Source: Asaia bogorensis | GTDB taxonomy: Bacteria > Pseudomonadota > Alphaproteobacteria > Acetobacterales > Acetobacteraceae | Direction: 5' to 3' | NCBI RefSeq assembly: GCF_900465345.1 | Contig: NZ_UEGO01000012.1 | Span: forward strand, 248,001-312,000 | Length of the DNA stretch: 64,000 bases | In this document: one piece after another, positions 489 through 6,944 of the stretch | Layout of the letters: each line of letters starts with the position of its first letter | Position numbering within the stretch: the stretch's first letter is position 1 | The notes under the pieces: generated by a model | What the model was told of the DNA's origin: nothing | Databases searched by the model: none | The model's input: the letters and a program-made list of their open reading frames with translations, nothing else | Position numbers and translations under genes: made by a program

Positions 489-1724
489 TCAACTGGCGCG
501 GTTGACTTGCGGCCTTATGAGGTTGGAGAGTCGAGAGATATTACCGGCCATGAGAGGCGTCGTCAGAAGCGCTTTTTTGAGGAATGGGAATCCGGCTTCA
601 AGTAGAACATCCCATAGCTCGATAGTGGGGTTGGTAACTTGTCGCCTCTTGAAGATCTCACGCCGCCACTCCGAACCAGACCCGTTATCTCCACGGTCAA
701 GGAGGGTCTCGTACTCCCATGCGGCACCAATCGTGACACCACTCCGGGTCATCCATCTGGAGAATCCCATTTCCTGGCCATTCACGACAAACCAGCGGTC
801 TGAAGCGGGTCGGTACGCCTTCCAGAAGCCATCCCAGGCCGGGCTGGAAACAAGGTCTTTACGGCAATAGATGAAGAATGACTGCAGGTGCCAGTCATGG
901 AGGAGACTATCGACCGCACCTGTGATCTGGAACGGACCGCTGCGAGCCTGTTGGAAGAGTGGGGTCAGGTCATTCATGGTGCCGATCACGCTATCGTTAG
1001 CGAGAAGGATTGAGTGATCTGTGAAGCCCGTATCCTTCAGCAATTGGACGCCAATGGCGTATAGTCCCCAATCATAAGCCCTATTATCGCAATATACTAT
1101 CTGCCACACATAGTCCCTAAGTCGCCCGATGGCCTCGGAAGATAGATTATGGCTATTCGTCATGAAGATAGTACGCACATCTTGATCTTTTAATGCGCGA
1201 AGATAGTCATACACATAGTCCTGTACATTATCCTGCGCATCGTAGTGAACGAATAGACAGATATCCTCGTTTTCAGCAGGGGGGGACGACAATATGGAGC
1301 GGTTGAGAATAACCTCCCTGCTTGTCTGGCGATTCATTTCGACCCGGGCGAAACGTGCCTCCGCTCCAAGGCCTGAGAAGAGTTCGGAGCGCCAGGATTT
1401 GTCCGCAGGTACGCGCCAACCGAGAGTCTCATGCCACTGTCTCATGGAGAAGAGCGGATTGGGATCGTACGGTCTGTCACGACGTTGGCGGCAGAAATGC
1501 TCGAGACAACTCATTCCCTGGGGAATTTCGCCTCCATAGGATTTTCGATAAAATTCAACGTCCAGTAGCGCATTGGGACCAACTCGATCCTGCGCCTGCA
1601 TACATTCCTTAAGCGATAGTTCAGGTTTTCCTGTGGCCTGTCTGATCCAGGTGAGGTCGAGAAGGGGGTGAGGGCTGACCTGATCGGCTGTCAGCGCAAC
1701 GTCTTGCATAACTTCGACTCTCAT
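489..1724 (-). CDS. RgpF-family (rhamnan synthesis protein F-like) glycan protein
   Basis: Probable cell-surface polysaccharide biosynthesis protein of the RgpF family, expected to act at the cytoplasmic face of the inner membrane. The RgpF core begins near residue 155 (ICLFVHYDA) and keeps the family order: AYDWGLYAIG near 220, ILLANDSVIG near 240, LQSFFIYC near 280 and WFVVNGQEMGFS near 310. The first ~130 residues form a separate module with the pattern FYRKSYG ... LEHF ... YDPNPLF, which recurs in the large protein encoded divergently at 1800. ATG at 1724 is chosen because GGGAAG lies about nine bases upstream; an in-frame TTG at 1742 is the alternative. No signal peptide or membrane segment is visible. 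The family is clear, but donor, acceptor and even the exact reaction are not. Confidence 0.75.
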   Translation of the reverse strand: MRVEVMQDVALTADQVSPHPLLDLTWIRQATGKPELSLKECMQAQDRVGPNALLDVEFYRKSYGGEIPQGMSCLEHFCRQRRDRPYDPNPLFSMRQWHETLGWRVPADKSWRSELFSGLGAEARFARVEMNRQTSREVILNRSILSSPPAENEDICLFVHYDAQDNVQDYVYDYLRALKDQDVRTIFMTNSHNLSSEAIGRLRDYVWQIVYCDNRAYDWGLYAIGVQLLKDTGFTDHSILLANDSVIGTMNDLTPLFQQARSGPFQITGAVDSLLHDWHLQSFFIYCRKDLVSSPAWDGFWKAYRPASDRWFVVNGQEMGFSRWMTRSGVTIGAAWEYETLLDRGDNGSGSEWRREIFKRRQVTNPTIELWDVLLEAGFPFLKKALLTTPLMAGNISRLSNLIRPQVNRAS

Positions 1725-1799
1725 ACGAAAACTTCCCGCCAAAATATGGGACTTTTGAATTCACTAATGTTACGATAGATTACCATGGTCATCTGCTAA

Positions 1800-4700
1800 A
1801 TGGAAACAGATCCTTTGTACCGTGATTCTCTAGGAAAGCTCCCTGTTGCGGCTTTTTGGGTGCCGAAGCATATATGTATTTCCGCCTGGCTTGAGCATGC
1901 GCCATTTGCATTTAGCATCGTTCAGATGCTCCAGCCTCGAACTTTGGTCGAACTCGGAACGCATCATGGATTTTCATATCTGGCGTTCTGCCAGGCTGTG
2001 CAGAATTGCGGTCTAAGCACACGGTGCTACGCGGTAGATACGTGGGAGGGTGACGATCAGGCTGGATTCTACAGTAATGATGTATACGAATCTCTCAGAA
2101 TAACCAATGAAGAGAACTACAGAGGGTTTTCCACGCTTATCAGAAGCAGGTTTGACCAGGCTCTGCCATTCTTTGAGGATGGTGAGGTAGATCTTCTCCA
2201 TATTGACGGTCACCATACCTACGAGGACGTTCTCGCAGACTATACGCAATGGCTCCCGAAACTTTCAGGCAGGGGTGTTGTCTTATTTCACGACACCAAC
2301 GTGCGGCGCGATGATTTTGGTGTCTGGAAACTGTGGAAGGAGCTTTCCCCGCAATACCCGTCCATCGAATTTCCGCATGGTAACGGGCTTGGCGTACTTT
2401 GTGTCGGTCCTAATGCGCCCGAGCCTGTCATCAGGTTTCTCAGTGGGGAGGTAGAGAGCGTACAGAGCCTTCAATTGGCTTATGCTGCTCTGGGGGGCGC
2501 GATTACGGTCCGTTTCCTGAAGGAAGCCATGCAGACAGAGGCAGCCACAAAAGCTGCTGAAGTCGGTCATTTGCACGGTAAGTTGGCAGAACTCCAACTC
2601 TCAAAGGATGCTAATGACCAAGTAAAAGCTGTTCTTCAGAATAATTTTGAGAAATTGCAAGGGGAGTTTGCGGCGCAAGGCGAGGCACTCGAAAAGCTGA
2701 ATGGGGAGTATTCCAGGATATGCAGTGCTTATAGAGTCCAACAGGGCGAAATAAGCCGTATAGAGGCAGAGAGAGCGTCGGAGCAGGCTTCGAGGATCGA
2801 GGCTTCCAACAAACAAGCAGCAGAGATCGAGCGCTTGACTTCTGCATTGCGGCACTCGAACGTTCGTGCTGATTCCGCGGTAGCTCTCCTCGAAGATGCG
2901 CGTTCAGAGACCGAGGAACTACGGGCACAACTGGCGCTCAGAGCCGAATTGCCAAACCAGAAGATCCCGCCGGCTAACACTCAGGCAGACCTTCTGTCGG
3001 AAGAAAAACTTGCCTCCCTGCACGCAAATATTGCTGCTTTGCAGAGTGCCTTGTCGAACACTGAAGCGCGGCTCCGTAGCGAAATGACTGCGCATTATAA
3101 TCTGGGGCTGCTGTACCATCATGCGACCTCAAAAATCCAGGCGCTCGAGGGGAGCACGTTCTGGCGTGTAACTGCGCCACTAAGGGGGATGGTAAGCAAG
3201 ATCCCAGCGTCTAGCAGGAGGCATTTCAGACGGTCGGCCAAAGCCATGTGGTGGCTCATGACACCACATCGTATTCCCCAGCGCATACAGTTTATCCGTG
3301 CACGCAGGGCCGCAATCAGCGAGAGCGAAAATCTGTCTCCCTTACCGGTTGTCATTTCCCCGGCTGCCCCGACAGCACTCCCGCCTTCCATTCCAGCGCC
3401 TGCAAACATCGAAAAATGCTCTGCCCCAGACGCAGTGTTTCAGGGCTGGTTCGATCCCGATTACTATTCCTCGCAATTGCCATGGCTGGCTGATAGCGGG
3501 ATAGATCCATTTGAGCACTACGCCAGTCAAGGATGGCGTGAAGGATATGACCCGCATCCTCTCTTCAGCACGGATTGGGTTGTTCAGAACAACCCGTGGC
3601 TCGTCGAAAGCGGTGCCAGCCCACTGGAAGTTTTCGCATCCGGGGATGTTGGCTCACCGATCATTGATAGCAACGTTCCCCGTAACTGGTATCGCTCGTC
3701 GGTGACATTCGGTGATGTGCCGACGATGATGCCGACTTTGTACACACCGCCAGGGCGAGCGCATTTTCCGTCGACAAGCGAGCATCAGTTTTACGCGCTA
3801 CTGGAAAAATCCGATGTGCTGTCTTTCGATATTTTCGATACTGCGCTTCTGCGGCGCGTGACGCATCCGACTTCTGTTTTCGACATTCTGGAAGATCGGG
3901 CCAGACAGCTAGATATCCGACTATCGCATCTGGCCGATATCCGCTTCTGGGCCGAGCGCGTAGCGCGGAGAAAATCGGATGAGGCAGGCACCACAACCGA
4001 AATCAGCCTGTCATCAATCTATGATGAGATCCAGGCTGACCTTCAACTCGAAGATGAACTTCGCCTCAAACTCTACGAGATGGAACTTGCGATAGAGCGT
4101 GAGGTCCTTGTCGCTAATCCTCACGTGTTGCGCTGGTATCGCTATGCTCGTTCGATCGGCAAGAAAGTTGTTTTCGTCAGCGATATGTATCTGCCGAGTG
4201 AATTTCTTGCCTCGGTTCTGGCTGATTCTGGCTTCGAGGACCCTGAGGTTTACGTTTCGAATGAGTTCAAGGCGGGCAAGTGGGATTGCAGGCTTTTCGG
4301 AATCGTCGCACAAGACCTCAAGACAAACCCGGAACGCATATTGCATGTCGGTGACAATGCTCACTCTGACAAGCGTAATGCGGATCAGGCAGGTTGGCGT
4401 GGACTTCAGTTTCTAGAAGGCGCCAACGACCAGCCTTACGCGGTGCAGCTTTCCGCCTCTGCCGGACTGGATATCTCTAATGTAGCGGTCTCCGTGGGAT
4501 GTGGGCTTGCTCATGCTCACCGCCTCAAGGTCGAGGCAAAGGAGATTTCGTTCAATGAGCGTTTCGCAAGGCATCTCGGTTACGAGGTAATAGGGCCGAC
4601 AATGCTGGCCTTTGCCGGGTGGGTGGCTTCCAGAGCGCAGGCTGATAATCTTGATCGTGTCCTCTTTCTGGCGCGCGACGGTTTTCTGGTTGATGAGATA

Positions 4701-5825
4701 TATCGGAAGCTGAGAGACACGAAGTCGTTCCTGCCCGAATCCCGGTATGTGGCGGCGTCGCGACGAATGCTCTACAATCGCATGTTTTCAGATGCGGAAT
4801 CGTTGATTGATGTTGCTTCACGCAGCATCGGCTTCTCAAAGAGCACGACGATCACTGAGTATTTCGACATATTCCTGCTCTCAGCTGATGAAATCGCCGA
4901 GGCAGCATCCAGAGCGGGCATCACCCATCTGGATCGCCCGCTCCTATGGCAGTTCTCACCGACGGGCGATTTCCATGAAGCGAGACGATTGCTCAATGAT
5001 GTGATTCGCGAGCTTGCCCCGATGATCCTCAGCAAGTCTCAAGAGGCGGCTCGATTGAAATCGCAGTATTACGAGGATGCTGGAGCGCTCGCATATAAGA
5101 GACGCGTGGGCGTTGTGGATCTGGGTTGGTCCGGTACGATCGTCGAGCCTTTGCACAAAATCATTACCGAGATATCACCTGGCGCAGAAGTACTCTCATA
5201 TTTCTTCGGCCTTACCCCCAAGGCCAACGAGATCATTCCTGCCAATATCTCGCATCGCGCTTATTCTTTTGAAGATAAATGGCCGCGTTGTGCGGCGCCT
5301 AACGGCATTCCTTCGGCCAAGCAGCCGCATGTTATCTATGGGGCTTCACTGTCCCTCATGGAGATATTGCTCAGTGAGAACTGCCCATCGGCGATCAGGC
5401 TGCAACGCGACTCTCACGATCAGACACCCCAGGTTGTGCGTGGAACCGACGCCTACGATGCAGATCAGCGTCATTTTCTCAACCTGGCTCATTCGTCTGC
5501 ACTCGAATTTGCGCAGGATGCCATTCCATTACTGCCAGATGATCTACAAAGCTGGAACTTCGCACCGTTACTGGCACAGGTTTGGAACCGTATTCTGTCG
5601 AGCCCCAGCCAGGAAGAGGCAAGGCTTTTGGCCGGTTTCCCGCACCGCATGGATGCAAGCGGCCATGGCGCGACAGAACTTCTGGTGTCCCAGCCTGATC
5701 ACGGTGGGGAATCGCTCATAGATCAGTATTGGACTTCGATGTGGCCTGCCGGTTGGCTGGCTCTCCTCGATCCTCTGACCCGCGCCAAGGTTTTGTCAGA
5801 GACTTCGGATGAGGAGATGGTCTGA
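1800..5825 (+). CDS. Multidomain SAM methyltransferase / coiled coil / HAD (COG5610-like) protein
   Basis: A 1341-residue fusion. Residues ~45-200 look like a class I methyltransferase of the Methyltransf_24 type: VELGTHHGFSYLAF near 50, DLLHIDGHHTYEDV near 132 and GVVLFHDT near 160. Residues ~240-445 are charged, Glu/Gln/Ala-rich and probably coiled coil, ending in GSTFWRVTAPLR near 455, a motif often next to glycosyltransferases. Residues ~550-590 carry FDPDYY ... FEHYASQGWREGYDPHPLF, the module shared with the divergent RgpF-like protein. Residues ~672-870 form a HAD domain: SFDIFDTALLRR (motif I), VFVSDMYLP (II), K in FKAGKWD and VGDNAHSDKRNA (III/IV). The C-terminal ~430 residues (RVLFLARDGF near 953, VVDLGWSGTI near 1103) match the COG5610 pattern. 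Start at 1800 has no strong ribosome site. Likely role is glycan synthesis or modification; substrate unknown. Confidence 0.7.
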   Translation: METDPLYRDSLGKLPVAAFWVPKHICISAWLEHAPFAFSIVQMLQPRTLVELGTHHGFSYLAFCQAVQNCGLSTRCYAVDTWEGDDQAGFYSNDVYESLRITNEENYRGFSTLIRSRFDQALPFFEDGEVDLLHIDGHHTYEDVLADYTQWLPKLSGRGVVLFHDTNVRRDDFGVWKLWKELSPQYPSIEFPHGNGLGVLCVGPNAPEPVIRFLSGEVESVQSLQLAYAALGGAITVRFLKEAMQTEAATKAAEVGHLHGKLAELQLSKDANDQVKAVLQNNFEKLQGEFAAQGEALEKLNGEYSRICSAYRVQQGEISRIEAERASEQASRIEASNKQAAEIERLTSALRHSNVRADSAVALLEDARSETEELRAQLALRAELPNQKIPPANTQADLLSEEKLASLHANIAALQSALSNTEARLRSEMTAHYNLGLLYHHATSKIQALEGSTFWRVTAPLRGMVSKIPASSRRHFRRSAKAMWWLMTPHRIPQRIQFIRARRAAISESENLSPLPVVISPAAPTALPPSIPAPANIEKCSAPDAVFQGWFDPDYYSSQLPWLADSGIDPFEHYASQGWREGYDPHPLFSTDWVVQNNPWLVESGASPLEVFASGDVGSPIIDSNVPRNWYRSSVTFGDVPTMMPTLYTPPGRAHFPSTSEHQFYALLEKSDVLSFDIFDTALLRRVTHPTSVFDILEDRARQLDIRLSHLADIRFWAERVARRKSDEAGTTTEISLSSIYDEIQADLQLEDELRLKLYEMELAIEREVLVANPHVLRWYRYARSIGKKVVFVSDMYLPSEFLASVLADSGFEDPEVYVSNEFKAGKWDCRLFGIVAQDLKTNPERILHVGDNAHSDKRNADQAGWRGLQFLEGANDQPYAVQLSASAGLDISNVAVSVGCGLAHAHRLKVEAKEISFNERFARHLGYEVIGPTMLAFAGWVASRAQADNLDRVLFLARDGFLVDEIYRKLRDTKSFLPESRYVAASRRMLYNRMFSDAESLIDVASRSIGFSKSTTITEYFDIFLLSADEIAEAASRAGITHLDRPLLWQFSPTGDFHEARRLLNDVIRELAPMILSKSQEAARLKSQYYEDAGALAYKRRVGVVDLGWSGTIVEPLHKIITEISPGAEVLSYFFGLTPKANEIIPANISHRAYSFEDKWPRCAAPNGIPSAKQPHVIYGASLSLMEILLSENCPSAIRLQRDSHDQTPQVVRGTDAYDADQRHFLNLAHSSALEFAQDAIPLLPDDLQSWNFAPLLAQVWNRILSSPSQEEARLLAGFPHRMDASGHGATELLVSQPDHGGESLIDQYWTSMWPAGWLALLDPLTRAKVLSETSDEEMV

Positions 5826-5855: not shown

Positions 5856-5895
5856 TTCACAGGGCTTCATCTTCATGGAGATGAAGCCCTGTGAA
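5856..5895 (+). terminator. Perfect 17-bp hairpin after the 1341-aa gene
   Basis: Arms 5856-5872 and 5879-5895 are exact reverse complements around a six-base loop (TCATGG), starting 31 bases after the stop of the large glycan gene. No T-run follows on either strand, so it is either a non-canonical terminator, an RNA-stabilising 3' hairpin, or an inverted repeat of another kind. Confidence 0.5.
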
Positions 5896-6870: not shown

Positions 6871-6944
6871 TGGAGGTCCGGGCGGGAATCGAACCCACGT
6901 ACGCGGATTTGCAGTCCGCTGCATCACCATTCTGCCACCGGACC
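6871..6944 (-). tRNA. tRNA-Cys (GCA)
   Basis: Read on the minus strand, a seven-base acceptor arm GGTCCGG pairs with CCGGACC. It is followed by discriminator U and an encoded CCA, 74 nt in all. The anticodon stem GCGGA/TCCGC encloses the loop CTGCAAA, giving anticodon GCA (plus-strand positions 6910-6912). The T-arm contains GTTCGATTC. U73 is the established identity base of cysteine tRNAs, which agrees with the anticodon. Confidence 0.95.

Follow-up and report, generated by a model that had tools for sequence, protein, structure and literature searches.

A putative ribofuranosyltransferase fused to a methyltransferase and a helical arm in Asaia bogorensis

In the stretch of Asaia bogorensis DNA analysed here (64,000 nucleotides, contig NZ_UEGO01000012.1, positions 248,001 to 312,000; hereafter the window), one gene (1800-5825, forward strand) was found as a frame unbroken from ATG to stop, encoding a chain of 1341 amino acids (aa). 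By sequence and modelled fold this chain is a glycan-assembly enzyme and itself a glycosyltransferase, because sequence, fold and aligned active-site residues all agree on its C-terminal half. From the N- to the C-terminus it comprised a Methyltransf_24 domain, a helical arm, a basic Trp-rich arm end, an FDPDYY...DPHPLF module, a HAD domain and a tail of about 460 residues. An earlier interpretation made from the letters alone (the sequence-only reading) had placed four such regions in this order within one frame, and the open frame and the domain matches bear it out. A sequencing or assembly joint between two adjacent genes was ruled out, since the same single chain recurs in a separate assembly of Asaia platycodi (L064). 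The parts of the chain are:

1800..2444, + strand, methyltransferase domain (PF13578 Methyltransf_24), residues 1-215
2460..3152, + strand, helical arm, probable coiled coil, residues 221-451 (231 aa)
3153..3335, + strand, arm-end signature STFWRVTAPLR ... RRSAKAMWWLMTPHRIPQRIQFIRARR, residues 452-512, basic and Trp-rich
3420..3635, + strand, FDPDYY...DPHPLF helical module, residues 541-612
3792..4454, + strand, putative HAD phosphoribose phosphatase (PRP) domain, residues 665-885, with D677, K827, D852 and D857
4455..5822, + strand, putative glycan phosphoribosyltransferase (gPRT) domain, residues 886-1341, with R959-D960, S987-R988 and D1107

A HAD-type match was detected at residues 826-878 by Pfam scan. 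In single-sequence searches, residues 672-990 matched Bcs3 of Haemophilus influenzae b (phmmer, E 6e-18), and residues 671-866 matched a ribofuranosyltransferase, PDB entry 7shg (E 4e-10). With a family profile of the C-terminal half, made from an alignment of 21 HAD-tail proteins, 7shg was matched over nearly its entire length (E 6e-63) and Bcs3 at E 1e-56. The model of residues 530-1341 (34 rows) had a predicted local distance difference test score (pLDDT) of 85.7 and a predicted template modelling score (pTM) of 0.83. The top eight PDB chains found with it by Foldseek were all Bcs3 or 7shg (E 2e-22 to 3e-21), while plain HAD proteins trailed far behind at 2e-5 and weaker.

The HAD motifs were intact, as the sequence-only reading had said: the nucleophile and the motif III Lys were present, D677 being aligned with Bcs3 D386 and K827 with Bcs3 K548. 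At the site for phosphoribosyl pyrophosphate (PRPP), R959, D960, S987, R988 and D1107 were aligned with Bcs3 R679, D680, S707, R708 and E818, so that six of the seven aligned active-site positions were identical and one was a Glu-to-Asp change (D1107/E818). In the tail, G961, S987, R988, D1107, G1109 and E1188 were invariant in all 21 rows of the HAD-tail alignment. In the mechanism published for Bcs3, CriT moves ribose-5-phosphate from PRPP and CrpP then strips the 5-phosphate (PMC10299916), and the names gPRT and PRP are used for these two enzymes (PMC11127046, PMC11231755). It is well supported by sequence comparison and modelling that the earlier 'HAD plus COG5610-like tail' is a single bipartite, two-step PRPP-dependent ribofuranosyltransferase, with the HAD domain as its 5-phosphatase half; the HAD domain was thereby kept and the tail renamed. 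Ribose would very probably be transferred by the gPRT domain, after which the PRP domain would act.

For the whole system our reading, with a probability of roughly 0.62, is that the ribose-adding PRP-gPRT and a divergent RgpF-family protein encoded beside it extend a chain, which the methyltransferase caps at a length set by the arm. The RgpF protein most likely adds an alternating sugar, perhaps rhamnose, to this ribose-containing chain. The methyltransferase, held off by the arm, would most likely methylate the chain end once it has grown past the arm, whereupon growth stops, and the basic Trp-rich arm end may anchor the complex to the membrane or serve as a docking site for a partner. That the methyl group caps the chain end is slightly favoured, length control by the arm is evenly balanced, and the odds are also level for a contact of the arm end with membrane or partner. 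Doubtful, though worth stating, is the fullest version, in which one chain would unite terminator, ruler and PRPP-dependent ribose polymerase module, the cap would be methyl alone without recognition through Wzt_C, and the two genes would form a portable glycan cassette that is gained and lost at a tRNA-Ser/tRNA-Cys site in Asaia. Capping or length control of a surface glycan had also been proposed by the sequence-only reading; it is plausible and backed by family context (PMC11231755). The analysis shows the homologies, the domain order, the catalytic-residue conservation and the neighbourhood; capping, length control, export, donor and acceptor are inferred.

The Methyltransf_24 domain, recognised earlier from its motifs, was matched at residues 50-166 (E 7e-29, 101.2 bits against a curated cut-off of 26.3), and E51, G53, D80, D136 and D165 were invariant in 15 aligned methyltransferase rows, the window's included. 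The best Foldseek matches of its model, which was of low overall confidence, were O-methyltransferases, and a methyltransferase profile gave a single weak match among PDB sequences (6g7d, E 0.0016). In a quick tree of 35 methyltransferase domains, the window domain paired with that of Asaia platycodi, and the two were grouped with G016, G293, G166, G215 and G247 (96% SH-aLRT). Whole proteins were scanned for G016, G293 and G215, which had a methyltransferase, an arm and two GT2 domains; these GT2 modules are absent from the window protein. Of the five nearest methyltransferase loci, four had a separate HAD-gPRT gene immediately 3' and in the same orientation, versus none of the 24 other family loci fetched (six of them shorter than 7.5 kb owing to a contig end), for which the chance is 2e-4 by simple counting with kinship ignored. 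The G215 and G247 rows were identical, and when they are counted once the proportions become 3/4 and 0/24 with a chance of 1e-3, kinship again ignored. In Oleisolibacter albus the genes stood in the row Wzm, Wzt with Wzt_C, methyltransferase-arm-GT2-GT2 and HAD-gPRT. By analogy, the N-terminal half of the window chain resembles the terminator and ruler of Klebsiella pneumoniae O7.

The arm was modelled, at low confidence, as an almost continuous helix (residues 221-267, 273-382 and 393-465), and a coiled coil is probable. Its heptad periodicity was reached by 1 of 1000 shuffles when I/L/M/V/F/Y/W were counted and by 4 of 1000 with L/I/V/M, and residues 246-425 gave a weak SMC match (E 0.0048, far under the SMC cut-off). 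The arm spans 231 residues in the window, 203 in Asaia platycodi and 112 in Citrobacter. Around its end, residues 450-525 contain 13 K/R versus 3 D/E, and the patterns STxWRxTxPLR and RRxAKxxWWxxTPHRxPxR were, with small changes, common to the window, Asaia platycodi, Paraburkholderia oxyphila, G016, G293 and Oleisolibacter (loci other than the window: L064, L065, L037, L038 and L108). A shorter form of the motif was present in 27 of 1347 open reading frames (ORFs) of the collected loci, several being copies of one gene.

The FDPDYY...DPHPLF module, noticed earlier as a short motif pair, is a genuine family: the profile built from 17 members, the window protein among them, matched the window protein at residues 550-610, where helices were modelled with a block pLDDT of 84-92 over most of the length. 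The same profile, from which the RgpF protein was excluded, also found the module at residues 61-101 of the latter (23.1 bits; E 6e-9 when two sequences were searched). Contigs C25 and C21 of the same genome also encode proteins with FDxxxY-type modules. The C21 protein (L059:1184-6655, 1823 aa), with Methyltransf_11, two FDxxxY/DPHPxF modules, GT2 and GT1, is a further methyltransferase-glycosyltransferase chain.

In Asaia platycodi the methyltransferase, arm, module, HAD and most of gPRT lay within one frame of 1153 aa, and the C-terminal half had 62% identity with that of the window. The frame (L064:4117-8042) breaks in the gPRT region, either genuinely or by draft error, and is followed by an overlapping frame of 188 aa. 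Between the two Asaia copies, amino-acid change (pN 0.14-0.25) was far below silent change (pS 0.77-0.86) in the methyltransferase, HAD and gPRT parts; pN and pS are reported here, silent-site saturation having blocked dN/dS in five of the seven segments. Among the 79 loci listed of 561 relatives, a methyltransferase in frame with HAD-gPRT was observed in Asaia platycodi only, and a neighbouring methyltransferase gene in three further loci (L093, L108 and L118). No other full-length match was present among the matches listed (299 genomes, two candidates scored per genome).

A protein encoded on a Citrobacter braakii plasmid (WP_181533356.1, L034, 1289 aa) had methyltransferase, arm, RgpF and HAD-gPRT fused and stood beside ABC-transporter and rml genes; search matches of this kind also came from Pantoea, Klebsiella and another Citrobacter record. 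HAD-gPRT was matched at E 1e-20 in 28 of 398 sampled Pseudomonadota genomes, the window's own included (two candidates scored per genome). In 11 loci from 11 of the other matching genomes, none had this methyltransferase and four had RgpF in the chain. In two genomes the chain comprised a sulfotransferase, an arm with an SxSWxLTKPxRF-type end, RgpF, HAD and gPRT (L163:3871-7911 and L164:3698-7672), and the sulfotransferase in the methyltransferase's place is possibly another kind of chain cap. A further many-module relative was a 1538-aa chain of PIG-L deacetylase, GT2, RgpF, HAD and gPRT (L162:6092-10708). A contig titled Methanoregulaceae archaeon (a metagenome-assembled genome) carried an RgpF-HAD-gPRT chain together with Wzm-like and Wzt-like genes (L112:4882-7899 with 737-2395). 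An archaeon with homologues is also named in PMC11231755.

The long gene and its RgpF partner form a two-gene islet, for which the following features were recorded:

489..1742, - strand, divergent RgpF-family gene, 417 aa by a TTG start, with an FDxxxY/DPNPLF-type module at residues 61-101
6871..6944, - strand, tRNA-Cys (GCA) by ARAGORN, bounding the variable site on one side
about 520-610 bases ahead of window base 1, tRNA-Ser (GCT) by ARAGORN

The RgpF protein (PF05045, E 4.7e-8) was the sole RgpF match in the genome, and a gap of 57 bp separates its gene from the start of the long one; it is likely the partner transferase for the same polymer. The GC content of the islet was 53.0% versus a mean of 59.3% (s.d. 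1.4) in 53 overlapping 5-kb windows further along, none of which was as low. The islet lay between tRNA-Ser(GCT) and tRNA-Cys(GCA), between gatB and tolC, with gatA/gatB, tRNA genes, a tolC-like OEP gene and valS as flanks. In Asaia platycodi it occupied the same site but was inverted relative to gatAB (L153:4851-9630 versus window 489-5825), and a close copy existed in two of nine genus genomes, the window's included. At the same site, G085 (L201) had about 750 bases with no ORF of at least 120 aa, G149 carried a transposase and other ORFs besides a 407-aa Methyltransf_24 protein and a 641-aa ORF that matched nothing in Pfam, and G286 had a PI-PLC-X gene. An integrase gene was located by tRNA-Cys in G300 (L202), where the stretch fetched did not reach gatB; the stretches of G228, G259 and G192 also fell short of it. 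At 31 bases 3' of the long gene's stop, adjoining 20-base arms with 95% complementarity (window 5856-5895) may be a transcription terminator. Comparison with PHROGs gave no added information.

An export operon beside the islet was looked for and not found among these flanks. Elsewhere in the genome, exporter candidates came from contigs C6, C7 and C17, each with an ABC2_membrane match, and from C32, which gave a Wzm-like one. The C7 set, with ABC2_membrane, an ABC ATPase, Poly_export and Capsule_synth (L158, C7 4001-24000; also C7:2169-4291), looks by sequence most like a capsule exporter of the Kps/Bex type. Some ORFs among these capsule genes resemble insertion-sequence genes by eye. A Wzm-like protein of 345 aa was encoded beside a Wzt-like ATPase of 254 aa on C17, and one of 302 aa without Pfam match beside a 258-aa ATPase and a transglycosylase gene on C32; both pairs could be polysaccharide exporters. 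The C6 match looks like a general ABC exporter. None of the candidates on the four contigs had Wzt_C or was linked to the islet. The dTDP-rhamnose genes rmlB, rmlA-like and rmlC were present with a GT2 gene on C22, also unlinked to the islet, and rmlD was not identified in the genome.

A number of observations weigh against a ribose-containing chain capped at a length set by the arm. In the pocket, Bcs3 S678 is replaced by A958 and Bcs3 R712 by Y992, although 7shg likewise carries Tyr at the latter position. The arm was modelled at low confidence (block pLDDT about 41-71), its heptad test gave no signal when Ala was counted (211 of 1000 shuffles), and it was the fastest-changing long part between the two Asaia copies (38% identity). 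The coiled coil of about 200 residues in the sequence-only reading has the long modelled helix and two heptad sets in its favour, with the model confidence and the Ala set against it. No kinase was detected between methyltransferase and arm, which starts at about residue 221 (residues 1-450 had no other above-cut-off Pfam match), so only a methyl cap would be possible. Paraburkholderia oxyphila (L065) kept arm end, module, HAD and gPRT without the methyltransferase, and G166, one of the five nearest methyltransferase loci, had no HAD-gPRT within its 10 kb.

The trees of the two halves also differ. A quick HAD-gPRT tree, built on 44 rows and containing many long branches (two of 46 rows, L067 and the second copy in L066, were dropped for lack of the start motif), joined the window half with those of Asaia platycodi, Paraburkholderia oxyphila and Komagataeibacter at 100%, and left it outside another 100% set formed by G016, G293, G215, Oleisolibacter and L048. 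The first four of this set adjoin methyltransferase-GT2 proteins; L048 had no such neighbour in its 9 kb. By sequence, the tree thus shows that the partner HAD-gPRT enzyme in the window is a different one, and because this half branches apart from the partners of the methyltransferase-GT2 proteins, the window chain looks like a chimera of two lines both serving ribose polymers.

Export is the other difficulty. As a rule, such terminators act together with an exporter that carries a Wzt_C-type domain (PMC11127046), and Wzt_C (PF14524) had no match in the genome. Thirty of the larger ORFs downstream in the window gave no polysaccharide exporter or glycosyltransferase match (three without any match, the rest ordinary housekeeping), and one of ten ORFs scanned upstream was GT2-like, about 13 kb away. 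The missing exporter tells more strongly against a terminator than against ribose transfer, because PRP-gPRT polymers of H. influenzae b can exit via an ABC exporter without a terminator (PMC11231755).

The alternative that survives best, though unlikely, keeps the C-terminal half as a ribofuranosyltransferase and lets the methyltransferase decorate in-repeat sugars, with the arm a mere scaffold and neither capping nor length control. It would fit a genome without a Wzt_C exporter, a chain without kinase and a poorly conserved arm, and it agrees with the related 407-aa methyltransferase standing without HAD-gPRT at the same site in G149 and with the Paraburkholderia chain that has no methyltransferase at all. 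The layout argues otherwise: a methyltransferase N-terminal to a long arm with polymerising modules behind it is that of the studied terminators (PMC11231755), and two other chains place a sulfotransferase likewise before arm, RgpF, HAD and gPRT.

Less probable still, the islet would be a pair of cargo genes, orphaned or in decay, at a tRNA hotspot, its ribofuranosyltransferase homologues making no exported polymer in this strain. Its low GC at a variable site, its close copy in only two of nine genus genomes, the broken frame in Asaia platycodi and the lack of a nearby exporter point that way. In contrast, the window copy is intact with its aligned catalytic residues in place, silent change greatly exceeds amino-acid change across the catalytic domains, and a Kps/Bex-type export set with Capsule_synth on C7 and exporter-like pairs on C17 and C32 exist. 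The phosphatase or phosphotransferase tied to glycan methylation in the sequence-only reading, that is, a HAD enzyme with an accessory tail for which a methylated glycan would be the substrate, has the intact motifs in its favour and is nevertheless very improbable, since the tail is a phosphoribosyltransferase by profile and fold with six residues invariant in 21 of 21 rows, and the HAD domain is better taken as the 5-phosphatase half of an enzyme by which the chain would add ribose.

In the fullest version, the ribose-adding and capping enzymes would be covalently joined by a measuring arm, and capping would set the length without gating export. What had been a vague 'HAD, COG5610-like' label becomes an activity that can be tested in Asaia, a genus of acetic acid bacteria, and the natural arm lengths of 231, 203 and 112 residues already provide variants with which the ruler idea could be tried on ribose polymers. 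An architecture already described would have counted against the sequence-only reading. Each half is known, while the joining of methyltransferase and arm to PRP-gPRT looks new: no account of it was found in the literature searched, a set that does not cover the family's founding 2022 study, which may discuss fusions. Nothing usable on surface glycans of Asaia or Acetobacter was found in the same literature.

Compared with known systems, the window chain is a case of a ribofuranosyltransferase fused to a terminator-like methyltransferase and arm. The enzyme of Thermobacillus composti (7shg) has, like the window, a HAD phosphatase followed by gPRT, with the VDxGWxGT and SRxG/ARDG regions aligned; its identity with the window is low (18% in the fold match), and its 648-aa chain is filled by the HAD-gPRT match, leaving no room for methyltransferase or arm. 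Bcs3 (CroT-CrpP-CriT; PMC10299916) is also a multi-enzyme chain, in which CrpP-CriT corresponds to HAD-gPRT with the seven aligned active-site positions, but it has a ribitol-phosphate transferase and an SH3b domain, and no chain-terminating residue is known for its system (PMC11231755). Fusions of a ribofuranosyltransferase-phosphatase with other modules are already in print, because capsule chains of Escherichia coli join it to a GT99-like 3-deoxy-D-manno-octulosonate (Kdo) transferase (PMC13171606). The Citrobacter protein WP_181533356.1, annotated as 'rhamnan synthesis F family protein', is like the window chain in its methyltransferase, arm, SWKITKPLR-type arm end and HAD-gPRT, but differs in having RgpF inside the chain and a HAD-gPRT of another branch; this comparable fusion seems to have arisen separately.

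In domain order, a putative terminating catalytic domain stands N-terminal to the arm of the window chain and a polymerising module after it, as in terminators of the WbdD and O7 type. By analogy, the chain would work like these and is not classed among them, because the Wzt_C exporter is absent from the genome. Resembling the layout proposed here, WbdD (E. coli O9a, K. pneumoniae O3/O5; PMC11231755) carries its terminating methyltransferase on the distal end of a coil whose C-terminal region is membrane-near, but its polymerase, WbdA, is a separate protein that it recruits. A cap kinase serves the methylphosphate in O3 and O7, while the O5 cap is methyl only. In K. pneumoniae O7, ORF6 consists of methyltransferase, kinase, coil and two GT2 modules, and ORF7 is the ribofuranosyltransferase (PMC11231755), a plan to which the Oleisolibacter albus operon is close. 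The window chain, which was likened to ORF6 by the architecture described there and not by direct sequence comparison, has neither kinase nor GT2, and its ribofuranosyltransferase is fused to the arm, whereas that of O7 is separate. Gluconacetobacter diazotrophicus is, like Asaia, an acetic acid bacterium. Homologues of O7 ORF6 and ORF7 are reported for it, as is an exopolysaccharide that shares the O7 main chain (PMC11231755).

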